Shown: in pieces, positions 14,136 through 42,983 of the stretch
Position numbering within the stretch: the stretch's first letter is position 1
Layout of the letters: every line of letters begins with the position of its first letter
Notes under the pieces: model-generated
Seen by the model: the letters and a program-made list of their open reading frames with translations, nothing else
Databases searched by the model: none
What the model was told of the DNA's origin: nothing
DNA from: Gemmatimonadaceae bacterium
Lineage (GTDB): Bacteria; Gemmatimonadota; Gemmatimonadetes; Gemmatimonadales; Gemmatimonadaceae
Assembly: GCA_025930755.1 (NCBI GenBank)
Contig: JAICOJ010000001.1
Span: 1 to 64,000 of the forward strand
DNA length: 64,000 nucleotides
Direction: 5' to 3'
Program-made: the position numbers and the translations under genes

Positions 14136-14173
14136 AGGCGATAAGGGCGCTTACGGCGCTAGGGGCGCTGAAG
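14136..14173. repeat. Four tandem 9-bp GGCGCTnnn units
   Basis: Upstream of the phosphofructokinase start the sequence reads GGCGATAAG, GGCGCTTAC, GGCGCTAGG, GGCGCTGAA, i.e. four tandem 9-mers. It abuts the family A hairpin. It lies in the phosphofructokinase leader and may affect its expression; no function is demonstrated. Confidence 0.6.
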
Positions 14174-14331
14174 GAGGGGTCAGGAGTCAGGAGTCAGGGG
14201 TCAGGGGTGGAAAGGGGCCGCCGCGCTTCGCGCGGCCGGCCCTCATCAGATGAGCGCGGCAGCTTCGCTGCCGCGCCTTTCCTTCCCTGACTCCTGACTC
14301 CTGACCCCTGACTCCTGACTCCTGACTCCTC
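14174..14331. repeat. Hairpin element, family A (TCAGGAG heptamers)
   Basis: The left arm (14178-14210) has four tandem TCAGGAG/TCAGGGG units and the right arm (14284-14330) has six inverted units (CTCCTGA). The spacer carries further perfect hairpins, including GCGCGGCAGC-TTC-GCTGCCGCGC at 14254-14276 and CCGCGC-TTCG-type pairing at 14221. It begins directly after the stop of the L,D-transpeptidase gene. Confidence 0.85.
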
Positions 14332-16080
14332 CTAATCCGCCAACTTCCTCAGCTCCTCCAACAGGGCAACCTCTCGCGGCGACGGGATCGCCGACCGCTC
14401 GACGAGCTTCACGAGCTCGCTGTCCCGCTCGTACAGGTCGTTTGCGAACCAGAGCGTTCCGTCGCGAACGTACGCTGTGAAGTAGACGATGTAGACGGGG
14501 ATCTTCTCCTTGAGCACGACCTGGCGGTTCGGCCCGCGTACCGCGCGCTGGATGCGCTCCTCCGTCCAGCCGGGCATGCCCGACAGAGCGTACTGCGCCA
14601 GCTCGTGCGGCTTCTGAACGCGAATGCATCCGTGGCTGAATGCGCGCACATCGCGGTCGAACAACGAGTGGTCCGGCGTGTCGTGAAGATAGATGTTGAG
14701 ATCGTTCGGGAAAATGAACTTGACGGTGCCCAGCGCGTTCTTCTCCCCGGGACGCTGACGGATGCGCGGACCGCCGCGATCTTCGACGATCTCGTAGTCG
14801 TTTCGCTCCAGGTAGCCCGGGTCGGCGTTGATCTTCGGCCAAAGCTCTTCCTCCGCGATCTTCTTCGGCACGTTCCAGTACGGCGCGAACTCCAGATACG
14901 TCATCGAGTCGGCGAACGCGGGCGTCGCCTGGTCCGCATAGTCCTGACCGACGATGACCCGCATGGACAGGACAGGCCGCCCATCCTCGTACGCGTCGAG
15001 CCGGAAGGCGGGAACGTTGACGTAGATGTACCGGTCGCCTAACGAACGCGGCATCCACCGATAGCGCTCGAGATTCGCCATGATCTGTCCCGCGCGGTAC
15101 TCCGCGGTCTGATTGAGCGACGCGAGCGTACCGGGCCCGAGGATGCTGTCGACGACGATGCCGTGCCTGCGCTGGAAGGTCGCAACGGCGCCAGCGAGCT
15201 CACCTTCGTAGATCGCCCGCCCGGTGGAATCGGTGGTGATGTCGCCGCGGTCGATGAACTCCTCGACGGCGAGACGCTCGCGGAGCGCCCTCAAGCGCTC
15301 GACTTGCGCGGTGTCACCGGGGCGAAGCGACGGGCCACCGGGGACCTTGGTCCAGCCGCCTGCGGCCGCAATCTCACGGTACCGCTTGAGCTGCTCGCGG
15401 AGCGCGGTGTACTGCTCGTCCTGCGGGCGCATGAGTTCGATCGCCCGCGCGAGCGGGCTTCCGCGCAGCGTACGCGCGAGCAAACTGTCGACGTCGGCCG
15501 TCGACTGCCGAATTCGCCAGTCGGGGGACACCTTCCCCGGGTCGATCTGGCCGGTGAGCAGATCTTCGCCGAGCGCGACGTAGATCGACGTCAGCACCAC
15601 ATCCGCCTCGGCCAACTGCTCCACGCGCGGACGACGGTTCTTGTCGATGGGCGCGAGGGCCGCACGAAGCTCCTCCAGCGGGTATGCGGTGCCGACGAGC
15701 CCGTGCTCGTGCACGGTCGACAGGGCATCGACCAGCTGGTCCGCACGCTCGCTGTCGGCGTCTTCTTCCAGCCAAAGCGGCACGTTCTGGTAGTACTCGT
15801 ACAGCTTGACGACGCGCGCCCAGTCGCCCTCGTCGAGCCCCTTGGGCCGCTTCCCGCTCGCGACACGGGCCTCGATCGCCTGCTGAATCGCGGCAACCGG
15901 GATGTTCCGGACCTTGGTGAGGCCGTGTGGGCTCCACGTCTCCGCGACGTCGCCCAGGTGGCTCTCGGGGGTCGCCGCGTCCTGGTTCCGGCACCCGGCG
16001 GCGAGCGCGACCGCCAGTATGGCTATGCCGAGGAGCCCCGCGCGACGACGCGCCAGGGGCCCGTGCAGCGTATCTTGCAT
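14332..16080 (-). CDS. L,D-transpeptidase (YcbB/LdtD-like), lipoprotein
   Basis: The 582-aa protein starts at ATG 16080 so that an export signal ends in a lipobox (LAAGC). It has a scaffold region, a peptidoglycan-binding domain (~315-350, GAVATFQRRHGIVVDSILG) and a YkuD domain with HDTPDHSLF and SHGCIRVQKP; Cys485 is the nucleophile. It forms 3-3 or protein cross-links in peptidoglycan. The 31 codons upstream in the same frame lack a signal and were dropped. It is divergent from the HhH lipoprotein. The stop abuts a family A hairpin. Confidence 0.92.
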   Translation of the reverse strand: MQDTLHGPLARRRAGLLGIAILAVALAAGCRNQDAATPESHLGDVAETWSPHGLTKVRNIPVAAIQQAIEARVASGKRPKGLDEGDWARVVKLYEYYQNVPLWLEEDADSERADQLVDALSTVHEHGLVGTAYPLEELRAALAPIDKNRRPRVEQLAEADVVLTSIYVALGEDLLTGQIDPGKVSPDWRIRQSTADVDSLLARTLRGSPLARAIELMRPQDEQYTALREQLKRYREIAAAGGWTKVPGGPSLRPGDTAQVERLRALRERLAVEEFIDRGDITTDSTGRAIYEGELAGAVATFQRRHGIVVDSILGPGTLASLNQTAEYRAGQIMANLERYRWMPRSLGDRYIYVNVPAFRLDAYEDGRPVLSMRVIVGQDYADQATPAFADSMTYLEFAPYWNVPKKIAEEELWPKINADPGYLERNDYEIVEDRGGPRIRQRPGEKNALGTVKFIFPNDLNIYLHDTPDHSLFDRDVRAFSHGCIRVQKPHELAQYALSGMPGWTEERIQRAVRGPNRQVVLKEKIPVYIVYFTAYVRDGTLWFANDLYERDSELVKLVERSAIPSPREVALLEELRKLAD

Positions 16081-16754: not shown

Positions 16755-16842
16755 GAACGAGGAATGAGGAACGAGGAAGCCACGGGTGGGAGCTTGCACG
16801 CAGGAGCATCCGACCAGCTTCCTCGTTCCTCATTCCTCGTTC
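16755..16842. repeat. Hairpin element, family B copy 1 (GAGGAAC heptamers), inside a gene start
   Basis: Perfect 26-bp inverted repeat: left arm 16755-16780, loop of 36 nt, right arm 16817-16842. Arms are tandem GAGGAAC/GAGGAAT units. The left arm contains the ATG at 16764, and both arms are translated as the N-terminus of the DUF4230 protein (MRNEE... and ...LPRSSFLVR). Confidence 0.92.
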
Positions 16843-17459: not shown

Positions 17460-17918
17460 ATGAAAGCGACCACGCTCTGGCTCGGACTCGTCCTGGTGGT
17501 GGTTGCGTGCGCGAAGTCATCGGCACCTGGCGATGACACCGCCTCGCTGACGGGCTCGGTGAGCGCGACGAGTGCCCTCGTAGGGCCGCGATGGCGACTG
17601 GTGGAGCTCGAAGGTCAACCGTCGCTCGCGGGCGGCGGTGCTCGCGAGCCGCACCTGATCTTCTCTCGCGACAGCGTCCACCGCGTCGCCGGCGCAACCG
17701 GCTGCAACTCGATGGGCGGGCGCTACGAGGCTGACGGCGACCGCATCCAGTTCTCCGATCTCTTCAGCACGAAGATGGCGTGCGTAGAAGAGGATCGGAT
17801 GCGCCAGGAAACTCGCTTCGTTCGTGTGCTCGAGCGAGCGGATCGGTACTCGATCAGCGGCGATACGCTGGCGCTGAGCGAGGGTGAGACGGTGGTGGCG
17901 AAGTTTGTGAGGAGCTGA
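17460..17918 (+). CDS. META-domain (HslJ-like) lipoprotein
   Basis: The 152-aa product has a lipoprotein signal (LVVVACAK) and a META domain: WRLVELEGQP, then the signature GATGCNSMGGRYEADGD and MACVEEDRM. HslJ/META proteins are periplasmic proteins tied to heat or antibiotic stress, with unknown mechanism. The ribosome binding site AGGAGGAGG derives from the preceding repeat. The stop codon lies within the left arm of the family B hairpin that follows. Confidence 0.88.
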   Translation: MKATTLWLGLVLVVVACAKSSAPGDDTASLTGSVSATSALVGPRWRLVELEGQPSLAGGGAREPHLIFSRDSVHRVAGATGCNSMGGRYEADGDRIQFSDLFSTKMACVEEDRMRQETRFVRVLERADRYSISGDTLALSEGETVVAKFVRS

Positions 17919-18018
17919 CAGGAACGAGGAACGAGGAACGAGGAAGTGGCAGGGATGGCCCTGCGCACGAAGCACCGTCGGCCACTTCCTCGTTCCTCGT
18001 TCCTCGTTCCTGTCAGCT
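17913..18018. repeat. Hairpin element, family B copy 2 (perfect 38-bp stem)
   Basis: Left arm 17913-17950 and right arm 17981-18018 are perfect reverse complements (38 bp). Arms are AGCTGACA plus three GAACGAG units plus GAAGTGGC. The 30-nt loop shares GGGA-GG-CCTGCGC with copy 3. It lies between convergent genes, so it could terminate both, but there is no T-tract. Confidence 0.95.
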
Positions 18019-18023
18019 TCTCA

Positions 18024-23856: not shown

Positions 23857-23976
23857 AACGGCAAAGATGACGGAATTCAGAATACAGAATTCAGAATCCA
23901 GAAACGACCACGGGGAGCCACACGCCGGCTCCCCGTAGGTTTTAGCTGAATTCTGAATTCTGTCATCTTTGCCGTT
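23857..23976. repeat. Hairpin element, family C copy 1 (ATTCAGA heptamers)
   Basis: The outer 15 bp AACGGCAAAGATGAC (23857-23871) pairs perfectly with 23962-23976. Inside are tandem GAATTCAGAAT units on both sides and a central stem CGGGGAGCC/GGCTCCCCG. It lies between convergent genes and is AT-rich compared with its surroundings. Confidence 0.92.
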
Positions 23977-27230: not shown

Positions 27231-27326
27231 GCATCACCACCGAGGCACTGAGGCACTGAGGACGGCAACCACCGACGCGCCTTGGTGGTTGCCGTCCTCA
27301 GTGCCTCAGTGCCTCGGTGGTGATGC
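27231..27326. repeat. Hairpin element, family E (perfect 43-bp stem)
   Basis: Arms 27231-27273 and 27284-27326 are exact reverse complements (43 bp) with a 10-nt loop. The arms contain CACCACC, tandem GAGGCACT units and GACGGCAACC. AACG/CGTT flank the ends. It fills most of the gap between the cytochrome and the PPK2 gene. Confidence 0.96.
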
Positions 27327-28373: not shown

Positions 28374-30221
28374 ATGCAGCCAACCGACGTCACGAATCCG
28401 CGGTACTACCACAAGGTGGTGGACTGCCAGTGGGGCTGTCCGGCACACACCAATGTGCCGGAGTACATCCGCCTCATCGCACAGGGCCGCTACACCGAGT
28501 CGTACCTCCTCAACCGGGCGTCCAACGTCTTCCCGGGTATCCTCGGCCGCACCTGTGACCGCCCGTGCGAGCCCGCCTGCCGGCGCACCCGCGTCGATGG
28601 AAAGCCGGTCGCCATCTGTCGGTTGAAGCGTGTGGCGGCGGATCTGCGCGATGACGTCAGCGACTTCCTGCCGAAAGTTCCTGAACGCAAGAACGGCAAG
28701 CGCATAGCGCTCGTCGGCGCGGGCCCGGCGTCGCTCACCGTGGCGAACGACCTCATGCCCCTCGGCTACGAGTGTGTGGTCTTCGAGAAGCTCGACCGGC
28801 CCGGCGGCCTCATGCGCACGAACATCCCGGCCTTCCGGCTCCCGGCCAGTGTGCTCGATGAAGAAGTCGCCATGATCATCGACATGGGCGTCGATCTTCG
28901 CCTCGCGACGCCGGTCACGAGCATGCGTGCGCTGCTCGCCGAGGATTACGACGCGGTCTTCGTCGGCAGCGGCGCGCCGAAGGGGAAGGAGCTGGACGTT
29001 CCGGGACGTTGGGACGCGAAGCGGATCCACATCGGCATCGAGTGGCTCGAGTCCGTCCACTTCGAGCATGTGACATCGATCGGCGAGCGCGTGCTGATCA
29101 TCGGCGTCGGCAACACGGCCATGGACTGCTGCCGCAGCTCGCGGCGGTTAGGCGGCCGCGACATCAAGGTGATGGCGCGCCGGTCGCGCAAATACTTCAA
29201 GGCATCCCCGTGGGAGCTCGACGACGCGCTCGAGGAGGGCGTCGAGATCGTCGAGAACCACGCGCCCAGGCGGTTCGTGGTGGAGAATGGCCGCCTGGTG
29301 GGTATGGAGTTCGAGCGGCTCGCGTGGAGCGAGAAGGATGGCAAGCAGCGGAGCGAGGTGATCGACACGGTTACCATCCCCTGCGACGACGTCATCCTGG
29401 CCATCGGTCAGGAGAACGCGTTTCCGTGGATCGAGCGCGACATCGGGATCGCGTTCGATGACGCCGGGATGCCGGTCGTCGATCGCGTGACCATGCAGTG
29501 TAGCCGCCCTGGCGTCTTCTTTGGCGGCGATGCGGCCTGGGGCCCGGAGAACATCATCTGGGCGGTGGAGCACGGGCATCAGGCCGCGATCTCGATCCAC
29601 AACTACTGCCAGGGGCTCCCGATCACGGACCGCCCATCCTACGGGATGAACCTCGTCAGCGCCAAGGTCGGCATGCATGCCTGGCGGTACAGCAACGACT
29701 ACAGTCCCGCGCCGCGCGCGGCGATGACGCACGTCGAGCTGACGCAGCGCTTTCAGAAGCTCAATGTCGAAGTCGAGCTCGGATTCACCGCCGAACAGAC
29801 CGCGCACGAGGTGGAGCGCTGTCTGAACTGCGACATCCAGACGCATTTCACGGCGCCCTTGTGCATCGAGTGTGATGCGTGCGTCGACGTGTGCCCGGTG
29901 AACTGCCTGACGATCACCACCGATGGGCCGGAGGAGGATCTGCGCACGCGACTGTCCGCACCAGCGCTCAACCGCACGCAGGAGATCTACGTGTCGGCCG
30001 CGCTACCACAGACGCAGCGGGTGATGGTGAAGGATGAAGACGTCTGCCTGCACTGCGGCCTGTGCGCCGAGCGCTGCCCGACGGCGGCGTGGGACATGAG
30101 GGAGTTTACAGTGTTGATTCCGTACGCCGGGAAGCCTGCGAGCTACGAACTGCGAACTGCGAACCCAATTCCCTCGGGTTTGAGCTCGCAGCTCGCAGTT
30201 CGCAGTTCGCAGCCGTTATGA
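28374..30221 (+). CDS. FAD-dependent NAD(P)H:ferredoxin-type oxidoreductase with two 4Fe-4S clusters
   Basis: The 615-aa protein resembles the glutamate-synthase small subunit/NfnB group. It has an N-terminal Cys-rich Fer4_20-type domain (CQWGCPAHTNVPEY, GRTCDRPCEPACRR), an FAD site (ALVGAGPASLTVA), an NAD(P) site (IIGVGNTAMDCC) and FGGDAAWGP. Two C-terminal ferredoxin clusters follow: CIECDACVDVCP and CLHCGLCAERCP. Coupled to korA and korB, it probably passes electrons between the 2-oxoacid oxidoreductase and NAD(P)H. The last ~26 residues are encoded by a family D hairpin. Confidence 0.88.
   Translation: MQPTDVTNPRYYHKVVDCQWGCPAHTNVPEYIRLIAQGRYTESYLLNRASNVFPGILGRTCDRPCEPACRRTRVDGKPVAICRLKRVAADLRDDVSDFLPKVPERKNGKRIALVGAGPASLTVANDLMPLGYECVVFEKLDRPGGLMRTNIPAFRLPASVLDEEVAMIIDMGVDLRLATPVTSMRALLAEDYDAVFVGSGAPKGKELDVPGRWDAKRIHIGIEWLESVHFEHVTSIGERVLIIGVGNTAMDCCRSSRRLGGRDIKVMARRSRKYFKASPWELDDALEEGVEIVENHAPRRFVVENGRLVGMEFERLAWSEKDGKQRSEVIDTVTIPCDDVILAIGQENAFPWIERDIGIAFDDAGMPVVDRVTMQCSRPGVFFGGDAAWGPENIIWAVEHGHQAAISIHNYCQGLPITDRPSYGMNLVSAKVGMHAWRYSNDYSPAPRAAMTHVELTQRFQKLNVEVELGFTAEQTAHEVERCLNCDIQTHFTAPLCIECDACVDVCPVNCLTITTDGPEEDLRTRLSAPALNRTQEIYVSAALPQTQRVMVKDEDVCLHCGLCAERCPTAAWDMREFTVLIPYAGKPASYELRTANPIPSGLSSQLAVRSSQPL
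30138..30216. repeat. Hairpin element, family D copy 1 (GCGAACT heptamers), translated
   Basis: Tandem ACTGCGA units (left, 30148-30164) face inverted TCGCAGT units (right, 30186-30212). The whole element is in frame at the 3' end of the preceding gene (YELRTAN...SSQLAVRSSQP) and the stop codon overlaps the start of korA immediately after it. Confidence 0.88.
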
Positions 30222-36839: not shown

Positions 36840-36946
36840 AACGGCACGAACCACAGAGGCACCGAGGGCACGGAGGAACCCCGAACTGCAGGACCTGCGG
36901 TTCGGGGTTCTTCCGTGCCCTCGGTGCCTCTGTGGTCAGTGCCGTT
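36840..36946. repeat. Hairpin element, family F copy 1 (GAGGCAC heptamers)
   Basis: A nearly perfect 107-bp palindrome. AACGGCAC is followed by ACCACAGAGGCACCGAGG, GCACGGA and GAACCCCGAAC; the second half mirrors this with about five mismatches in some 53 bp, and there is almost no loop. It lies between the S9 gene and the sugar dehydrogenase-like gene. Confidence 0.95.
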
Positions 36947-42456: not shown

Positions 42457-42558
42457 GAACTGCGTAAACCACAGAGGCACCGAGGCACAGAGAACGGCCA
42501 ACTGCACGTCCTCTGCAGTTGGCCGTTCTCTGTGCCTCGGTGCCTCTGTGGTTATGCA
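42457..42558. repeat. Hairpin element, family F copy 2 (perfect 40-bp stem)
   Basis: Arms 42467-42506 and 42514-42553 are exact reverse complements with a 7-nt loop. Units are ACCACAGAGGCACCGAGG, CACAGAG and AACGGCCAACTGCA. It lies between the metalloprotease stop and the GxxExxY stop, 7 nt from the latter. Confidence 0.96.
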
Positions 42559-42560
42559 GT

Positions 42561-42983
42561 CTACAGCACGAGGCGCACAATGCCATCGCGCAGCACGTCC
42601 GCATTGAAGTTCATGAGAAGTCCGACACGAAGGCCAGTCAGCTTGAGGTAAGTGAGTACTTGCGCGGTATGAACCGGCGCCAAACGCTCGACGGCTTTGA
42701 GTTCGACAAGAACGCGTTTCTCGACGATTAGATCAAGCCGATAGCCGGCGTCCACATGAACGCCCTTGTAGACGAGCGGAAGCGCCATCTCGCGCTCGAT
42801 AGTCAAACCGCGGTGATTGAGCTCCCAACACAGGCACTCCCGATACGCGGACTCGAGTAGCCCAGGCCCGAGCTGCCGATGCACCTCGATTCCCGCGCCG
42901 ATGATCTGGCCGGTGAGGGAATCCCTCTGTGCCCTCGGTGCCTCTGTGGTTATGCTCTTGGCTCGTTGCGAGAGGAGCCCCAA
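42561..42983 (-). CDS. GxxExxY protein, PD-(D/E)XK nuclease-like
   Basis: The 140-aa protein contains the eponymous motif G41-LLE-SAY47 and D84...E94-L-K96 (YRLDLIVEKRVLVELKAVE), the D-(x)n-ExK arrangement of PD-(D/E)XK nucleases. Function is unproven. It lies between a family F hairpin (downstream) and a family F half-arm that encodes residues ~10-20 (SITTEAPRAQR). The only start in frame before the domain is TTG 42983. A second frame with an ATG at 43023 would join the domain if one G were removed from GAGGG in the half-arm. A recent frameshift is therefore possible. Confidence 0.82.
   Translation of the reverse strand: MGLLSQRAKSITTEAPRAQRDSLTGQIIGAGIEVHRQLGPGLLESAYRECLCWELNHRGLTIEREMALPLVYKGVHVDAGYRLDLIVEKRVLVELKAVERLAPVHTAQVLTYLKLTGLRVGLLMNFNADVLRDGIVRLVL
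42924..42955. repeat. Family F half-arm at the start of the GxxExxY gene
   Basis: CTCTGTGCCCTCGGTGCC and TCTGTGGTTATGC match the right arm of the 42457 element, including the GTTATGC end, with one additional C/G. There is no facing left arm except the complete hairpin on the other side of the GxxExxY gene. Confidence 0.9.

Follow-up and report, generated by a model that had tools for sequence, protein, structure and literature searches.

A GxxExxY nuclease-like gene family framed by inverted heptamer arms, and its possible kinship in function with REPIN/RAYT systems

GxxExxY genes, annotated in very many genomes without a function, are bracketed across bacterial and archaeal phyla by inverted arms built of 7-8-mers, and in some genomes dozens to hundreds of solo hairpins share the arm of a unit in that same genome. 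Heptamer hairpins are themselves common in genomes of several phyla and occur at contig ends; the link between the two gives both a testable function. The pattern suggests an unrecognised mobile-DNA system that resembles REP repeats and is built around a different enzyme.

The window unit and its predicted nuclease

The window, by which we mean the whole 64,000-nucleotide stretch of Gemmatimonadaceae DNA that was analysed, carries the following features:

42561-42983, minus strand: GxxExxY gene, PD-(D/E)XK nuclease-like (longest ORF, TTG start, 140 aa)
42570-42917, minus strand: conserved core of this gene
42467-42553, unstranded: complete heptamer-arm hairpin 3′ of the gene (arms 42467-42506 and 42514-42553, loop 42507-42513)
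42933-42957, minus strand: left half-arm at the 5′ end of the gene (GCATAACCACAGAGGCACCGAGG on the minus strand), translated as the N-terminus
36840-36946, unstranded: solo hairpin of the same family as the window unit (ACCACAGAGGCACCGAGGGCACGGAGG; 53-nt arms, 92% complementary)
27231-27326, unstranded: solo hairpin of a sister variant (ACCACCGAGGCACTGAGGCACTGAGG; 48-nt arms, 96% complementary)
14172-14333, 16755-16842, 17908-18023, 23857-23976 and 30136-30213: hairpins of other heptamer families

The complete 40-bp hairpin claimed by the original prediction for the 3′ end of the gene is present: its 40-nt arms are 100% complementary around a 7-nt loop, with 7 nt between the arm and the stop codon of the ORF on the minus strand. 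Folded as single-stranded DNA, it forms a longer stem (42459-42560) with an energy of -61.4 kcal/mol (z = -17.7 against shuffles). The second claim, a matching half-arm at the 5′ end that is read as the N-terminus, also holds. The sequence CCTCGGTGCCTCTGTGGTTATGC at 42933-42955 is identical over 23 nt to 42535-42557, positions 42933-42951 are the reverse complement of 42467-42485 (19 nt), and the half-arm is translated in frame as ...SITTEAPRAQRDS..., N-terminal to the conserved core. The window unit has a mixed layout, with a half-arm on the left and a complete hairpin on the right. The pattern ACCACAGAGGCAC matches nine times in the window at up to two mismatches, against 1.1 expected; it is found exactly on both arms of the solo hairpin at 36840-36946 and with one mismatch in the sister variant. 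In Rfam, the only matches were to miRNA-like hairpins and fell short of the gathering score. The hairpins of other families are of AGGAGTC, GAACGAG, GAATTCA and CTGCGAA types with arms of 21-51 nt, and no GxxExxY gene adjoins them within the window.

The window protein belongs to the GxxExxY family (TIGR04256, E 9e-45, 151.8 bits against a cut-off of 35) and matches PDDEXK_3 (PF13366, E 5e-43, 146.7 bits against a cut-off of 22), in both cases over nearly its full length. An alignment of 51 GxxExxY proteins shows G39, G41, E44, Y47, D84, K96 and Q108 to be invariant, with E94 and Y112 kept at 90% or more. The nuclease signature D84...E94-x-K96 proposed for the window protein was correctly read, and the motif order of the family is D...E-x-K...QxxxY. 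An AlphaFold2 model places residues 21-140 in a core of high confidence (pLDDT >90) with the secondary-structure order H-H-EEEEE-H-E. Residues 1-20 are disordered in the same model (pLDDT <50), so the residues derived from the arm are probably not part of the protein fold. The predicted nuclease residues follow the D...(D/E)xK arrangement on an alpha-beta core that defines the PD-(D/E)XK superfamily. The nearest solved folds are lambda-exonuclease, Cas4 SSO0001 and AdnAB, all of them weak matches (E 0.008-0.13), and the Protein Data Bank holds no sequence relative of the GxxExxY protein. Weak matches to the Cas4 profile were obtained for 27/51 members (best E 0.0014); the window protein stays below the gathering score at 13.6 bits against 22.7. 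From the conserved residues and these weak fold and profile matches, we infer that the GxxExxY enzyme is a Cas4/RecB-like PD-(D/E)XK nuclease. The 4.27-Mb genome of the window contains a second full-length GxxExxY gene (C62), flanked by hairpins from another arm family (TTACCGCAGAGGACGCGGAG), as well as a partial third copy without evident arms.

Inverted arms around the gene across genomes

To score bracketing, the 250 nt on the 5′ side of the conserved core were aligned with the reverse complement of an equally long stretch on its 3′ side; every other ORF of 100 aa or more on the same contigs or loci served as a control. Two samples were scored in this way. The first comprises 198 genomes of the window's class within Gemmatimonadota, 43 of which are positive, with 76 GxxExxY genes. 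At a cut-off of 20, 28/76 GxxExxY genes are bracketed in this sample and 48/76 fall below the cut-off, against 2/372 bracketed controls (Fisher p ~ 7e-22). The second sample was drawn from all prokaryotes by protein sequence alone and yielded 80 loci that span about 15 phyla or classes of bacteria and archaea. Here, in a sample confined to the HRxLGPGLLE subfamily, 67/77 genes (87%) are bracketed at a cut-off of 14, against 12/419 controls (p ~ 1e-59); at a cut-off of 20 the counts are 45/77 and 5/419. Arms are mostly still recognisable by eye in the ten genes that score under 14. Stricter controls, for which at least 60 nt on either side of the gene had to be non-coding, gave 7/138 against the 67/77 units in the all-phyla sample (cut-off 14) and 0/77 against 28/76 in the class sample (cut-off 20). 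In both samples, GxxExxY genes are thus found between heptamer arms 30 to 70 times as often as control genes are. The original prediction had ventured that the association may be general and would fall if no enrichment were found beside GxxExxY genes; the association turned out to be stronger than proposed.

Coincidence, or an assembly artefact in repeat-rich genomes, could be invoked here, as several hairpins lie at contig ends and these genomes commonly carry heptamer hairpins of diverse types. This reading is scarcely credible: controls on the same contigs are bracketed at 0.5-5%, and the pattern extends over about 15 phyla or classes and is also seen in genomes assembled into one or few contigs.

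The arms are inverted, 25-40 bp long and built of 7-8-mers (67/77 loci). A typical unit reads TTC/TTA-ACC(A/G)C(A/G)GAG-(A/G)CAC(A/G)GAG-ACAC(A/G)GAG, followed by a short gap, the gene, another short gap and the inverted arm, with a median length of 453 bp from ACC to GGT. Arm variants include CACAGAG, CGCAGAG, CACGGAG and CACGAAG, and further variants occur in Gemmatimonadota (GACTGAAGAAG, GACAGGATGACAGGA and CACGGATG). The gene often stands alone in the loop between left and right arm, and in the fold of one unit (L206) the arms close around the whole gene. At four loci (L113, L101, L120 and L107) a complete hairpin lies on either side of the gene. The left arm does not interrupt the reading frame in 41/59 loci, and in several ORFs an ATG immediately precedes ACCAC. 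This open frame explains the NHRGTEDTE-like N-termini that the original prediction ascribed to other GxxExxY proteins as translations of the repeat.

The two arms of one unit match each other better than they match the arms of other units. Left and right arm types agree within a unit in 49/69 cases, against 14.5 when shuffled, and the mean arm-pair score is 21.1 for a unit's own pair against 12.0 for arms swapped between units. Could the arms instead be regulatory, acting as a terminator, an mRNA stabiliser or an autoregulatory site, with the solo hairpins as unrelated REP-like terminators? The window hairpin does lie between two convergent genes and folds very stably. However, a stem that encloses a gene over 350-500 bp is no terminator, the arm sequences are common to the solo population of the genome, and the arm sequence itself, beyond its pairing, recurs across phyla. 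We therefore consider a regulatory role very improbable.

Solo hairpins, filled and empty sites and turnover of the arms

Solo copies that share a unit's arm are found in the same genome. Counted by genome-wide pattern searches, ACCACAGAGGCAC has 48 exact sites in the 4.27-Mb window genome, mostly paired as hairpins, and the reversed ACCACAGAGGCAC pattern has none there. The arm of one Gemmatirosa unit has 259 sites in its own genome and none in four relatives. The arm of the unit in genome G113 recurs more modestly, at six sites against 0-2. A repeat that flanks the gene and is also dispersed in numbers through that genome in particular is what characterises the way RAYT/REPIN systems work; the dispersed population is weaker in G113. 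In genome G008 (L247-L251), solo hairpins measure about 185 bp, and their heptamer arms enclose a second conserved palindrome, GGCTCGGCGGACAGATCTGTCCGCCGAGCC.

Co-occurrence was assessed with a generic ACCRCRGAG-type pattern, requiring at least two matches per genome. Such repeats are present in 9/43 genomes with the gene and 2/155 without it, and the associated p = 2e-5 overstates independence because the sampled genomes are related. The original prediction expected hairpins to be scarcer in genomes without a GxxExxY gene. That expectation stands for the sample as a whole and fails in genome G108, which is rich in hairpins (47 ACCRCRGAG-type arm sites) and has no PF13366 gene. A hidden gene carrier was ruled out in this genome, as there is no PF13366 match; gene loss, a missing contig or another mobiliser are candidate readings of the exception.

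The empty-site alleles that the original prediction proposed to look for exist among congeners. At a site between two conserved genes in genus g4, six species carry the unit (542-741 bp), while the same intergenic site in five other species measures only 39-64 bp; in genus g11, solo hairpins and a gene unit alike occupy syntenic sites in some genomes and are missing there in others. The filled and empty sites in g4 could reflect loss of the unit as well as its gain.

Arm sequence turns over fast at an orthologous site. The arms of the six g4 units differ between species and are complementary within five of the units (scores 14.5-30), against a mean score of 10.3 when arms are compared between species; the remaining unit, in G232, has no detectable arms (score 8.0). 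Between G113 and G144 (L089 and L292), the flanks of this orthologous site are about 93% identical and the GxxExxY proteins 66%, so gene and arms either evolve jointly and fast or the cassette has been exchanged. At the window's own site, the genus mate G198 has kept the gene together with a related hairpin, the arms of which have changed and still pair. Two side observations concern these genomes. A hairpin adjoining the GxxExxY gene (GAACTGAC...GTCAGTTC) is present as three tandem copies in G113 (L081 6260-6650) and as one copy in its sister species G144 (L082 6270-6400). At one intergenic location, G113 (L316 2390-2605) has a heptamer hairpin where G144 (L334, G144:C4:7655-7844) has an unrelated repeat array, CAGCTCTGACCC.

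The unit of about 450 bp might be an autonomous element of the insertion-sequence kind, in which the arms would be terminal inverted repeats, the GxxExxY protein a transposase and the solo hairpins MITEs produced by internal deletion. Terminal inverted repeats, as in a classical DDE insertion sequence, surround the gene at 67/77 loci, and the layout is constant over many phyla, with about 450 bp between TTC/TTA|ACC...GGT|GAA/TAA ends. Presence and absence at orthologous sites, the intermixing of phyla on the protein tree and internal-deletion derivatives with both arms kept (L232 and L244, which have lost the catalytic middle) are all in keeping with such an element. The target-site duplication of a classical DDE insertion sequence was, however, not found: flanks of 57 units show no clear excess of duplication over permuted flanks at any offset. 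No fixed target sequence was found at the unit ends, and comparison with congeners did not place the insertion ends to the base, as intergenic DNA is too diverged. Moreover, a genome usually holds one to few divergent copies rather than near-identical ones, the sole near-identical amplified copies found use other ends, and strand-joining chemistry is, to our knowledge, not known for a lone PD-(D/E)XK domain. An autonomous element of this kind is thus doubtful. Carriage of the units by phages was rejected, with no match in 50,697 phage records and one locus in viral contigs.

The amplified copies lie in genome G033 (L237-L243 and L252-L271). There, a truncated GxxExxY gene and its arms have been captured by a transposon-like unit, which has GTAGTGGGTCAGTTT/AAACTGACCCACTAC ends and 8-bp direct repeats and has carried them to at least six places. 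These dispersed copies were rejected as proof of self-mobility; since they carry ends of their own and 8-bp direct repeats, their amplification was probably driven by another transposase.

The gene might also be a passenger: the hairpins would spread by other means, and the gene would enter them when its arms recombine homologously with resident hairpins, or through other transposons. The truncated units amplified inside GTAGTGGGTCAGTTT ends in G033, the several hairpin families of the window that have no GxxExxY gene nearby, and G108, with hairpins and no gene, all point this way. This explanation leaves unaccounted for both the 87% bracketing of one gene family, against 1-5% of other genes, and the arm-to-arm match that is upheld while the arms change; we judge it unlikely.

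A cut-and-repair proposal and comparison with known systems

We favour, with moderate confidence, a two-part system that works like REPIN/RAYT through a non-homologous nuclease, the hairpins being spread by cut-and-repair. Its parts would be the gene for a PD-(D/E)XK nuclease of about 120 aa between inverted arms of 7-8-mers, and genome-specific solo hairpins with the same arms. The nuclease would recognise its own arms, as a single-stranded DNA hairpin or as a cruciform, and nick or cut there. Host repair templated by another copy could then carry hairpins to new intergenic places. Such templating would also keep the copies alike, and arms and nuclease would evolve together for this reason. 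Because PD-(D/E)XK enzymes hydrolyse, and we know of no strand joining by a lone domain of this type, cut-and-repair fits better than strand transfer by a transposase. Copying of this sort would account for the cognate arms, their concerted change and the absent target duplications. The protein may cut, copy or mobilise the hairpins, as originally suggested; what the observations establish is the association of gene and hairpins. A broader claim is more tentative, possible though short of probable: the units may represent a new class of mobile or selfish DNA in bacteria and archaea, in which a lone Cas4/RecB-type nuclease of about 120 aa would be the only element-encoded enzyme needed for copying of the arms by cut-and-repair, with arms and specificity co-diversifying.

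Among 5.39 million open-access papers, no link between GxxExxY genes and repeats was found; most subscription papers and bioRxiv preprints lay outside this scope and priority is uncertain. Six arm 15-mers are likewise not described there as repeats, the single match being in a fish eDNA paper.

Several known systems share part of this design. IS200/IS605 elements (TnpA, subterminal hairpins) are small, have hairpins at both ends and make no target duplication. GxxExxY units are similarly small, with hairpins at both ends and without target duplication, but they lack the HUH motif, their ends are inverted copies of each other and no fixed target tetranucleotide was seen. The Cas4, RecB and lambda-exonuclease nucleases have the D...E-x-K...QxxxY order and the fold in common with the GxxExxY protein (the fold matches being weak), whereas the latter falls below the Cas4 cut-off, is much shorter and has no sequence relative in the PDB. 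Cyanobacterial STRR are abundant intergenic heptamer repeats, and we know of no nuclease gene reported as linked to them or to the TAACTGA repeats. The latter are abundant intergenic heptamers of Beggiatoaceae (PMC4679880). Both form direct arrays, in contrast to the inverted arms of the GxxExxY system. Rpn (YhgA-like) proteins are PD-(D/E)XK nucleases as well; no heptamer arms are known to us for them, and their family, PF04754, is absent from the Pfam hits of 51 GxxExxY members at E <= 0.1. Rpn nucleases have been implicated in RecA-independent DNA mobilisation (PMC5350276) and have a gene-within-gene toxin-antitoxin layout (PMC10327210).

The closest parallel is REPIN/RAYT, where a resident nuclease gene is bordered by its own palindromic repeats, which form dispersed, genome-specific intergenic populations (PMC3116915, PMC8266576). 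RAYT genes are mostly present in one to few copies and common to related species, and several repeat families can coexist, each beside its own gene (PMC3116915, PMC8266576). The GxxExxY system also combines a nuclease gene with border repeats and a genome-specific dispersed population; its gene, too, is mostly found in one to few copies and in related species, and its several repeat families each adjoin a gene of their own. It differs in its enzyme, which is of the PD-(D/E)XK type (Cas4/RecB-like) rather than HUH-Y1, in its arms, which are tandem 7-8-mer units of the ACCACAGAG-ACACAGAG type, and in that the gene often occupies a loop enclosed by a single left arm and a single right arm. No HUH motif with a Y1 tyrosine was found among the 51 members, all of which (51/51) match PDDEXK_3 with no transposase or HUH family among their Pfam hits, and no GTAG-type REP tag was seen beside the gene, where the arms end in TTC/TTA-ACC(A/G)C... 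The system thus works like REPIN/RAYT and is not one, because the HUH enzyme and the GTAG-tagged REPs are absent. If the proposal is correct, a system of the REPIN/RAYT kind would have evolved a second time, independently, with an enzyme similar to the Cas4/RecB nucleases that act in DNA repair and in CRISPR spacer acquisition.
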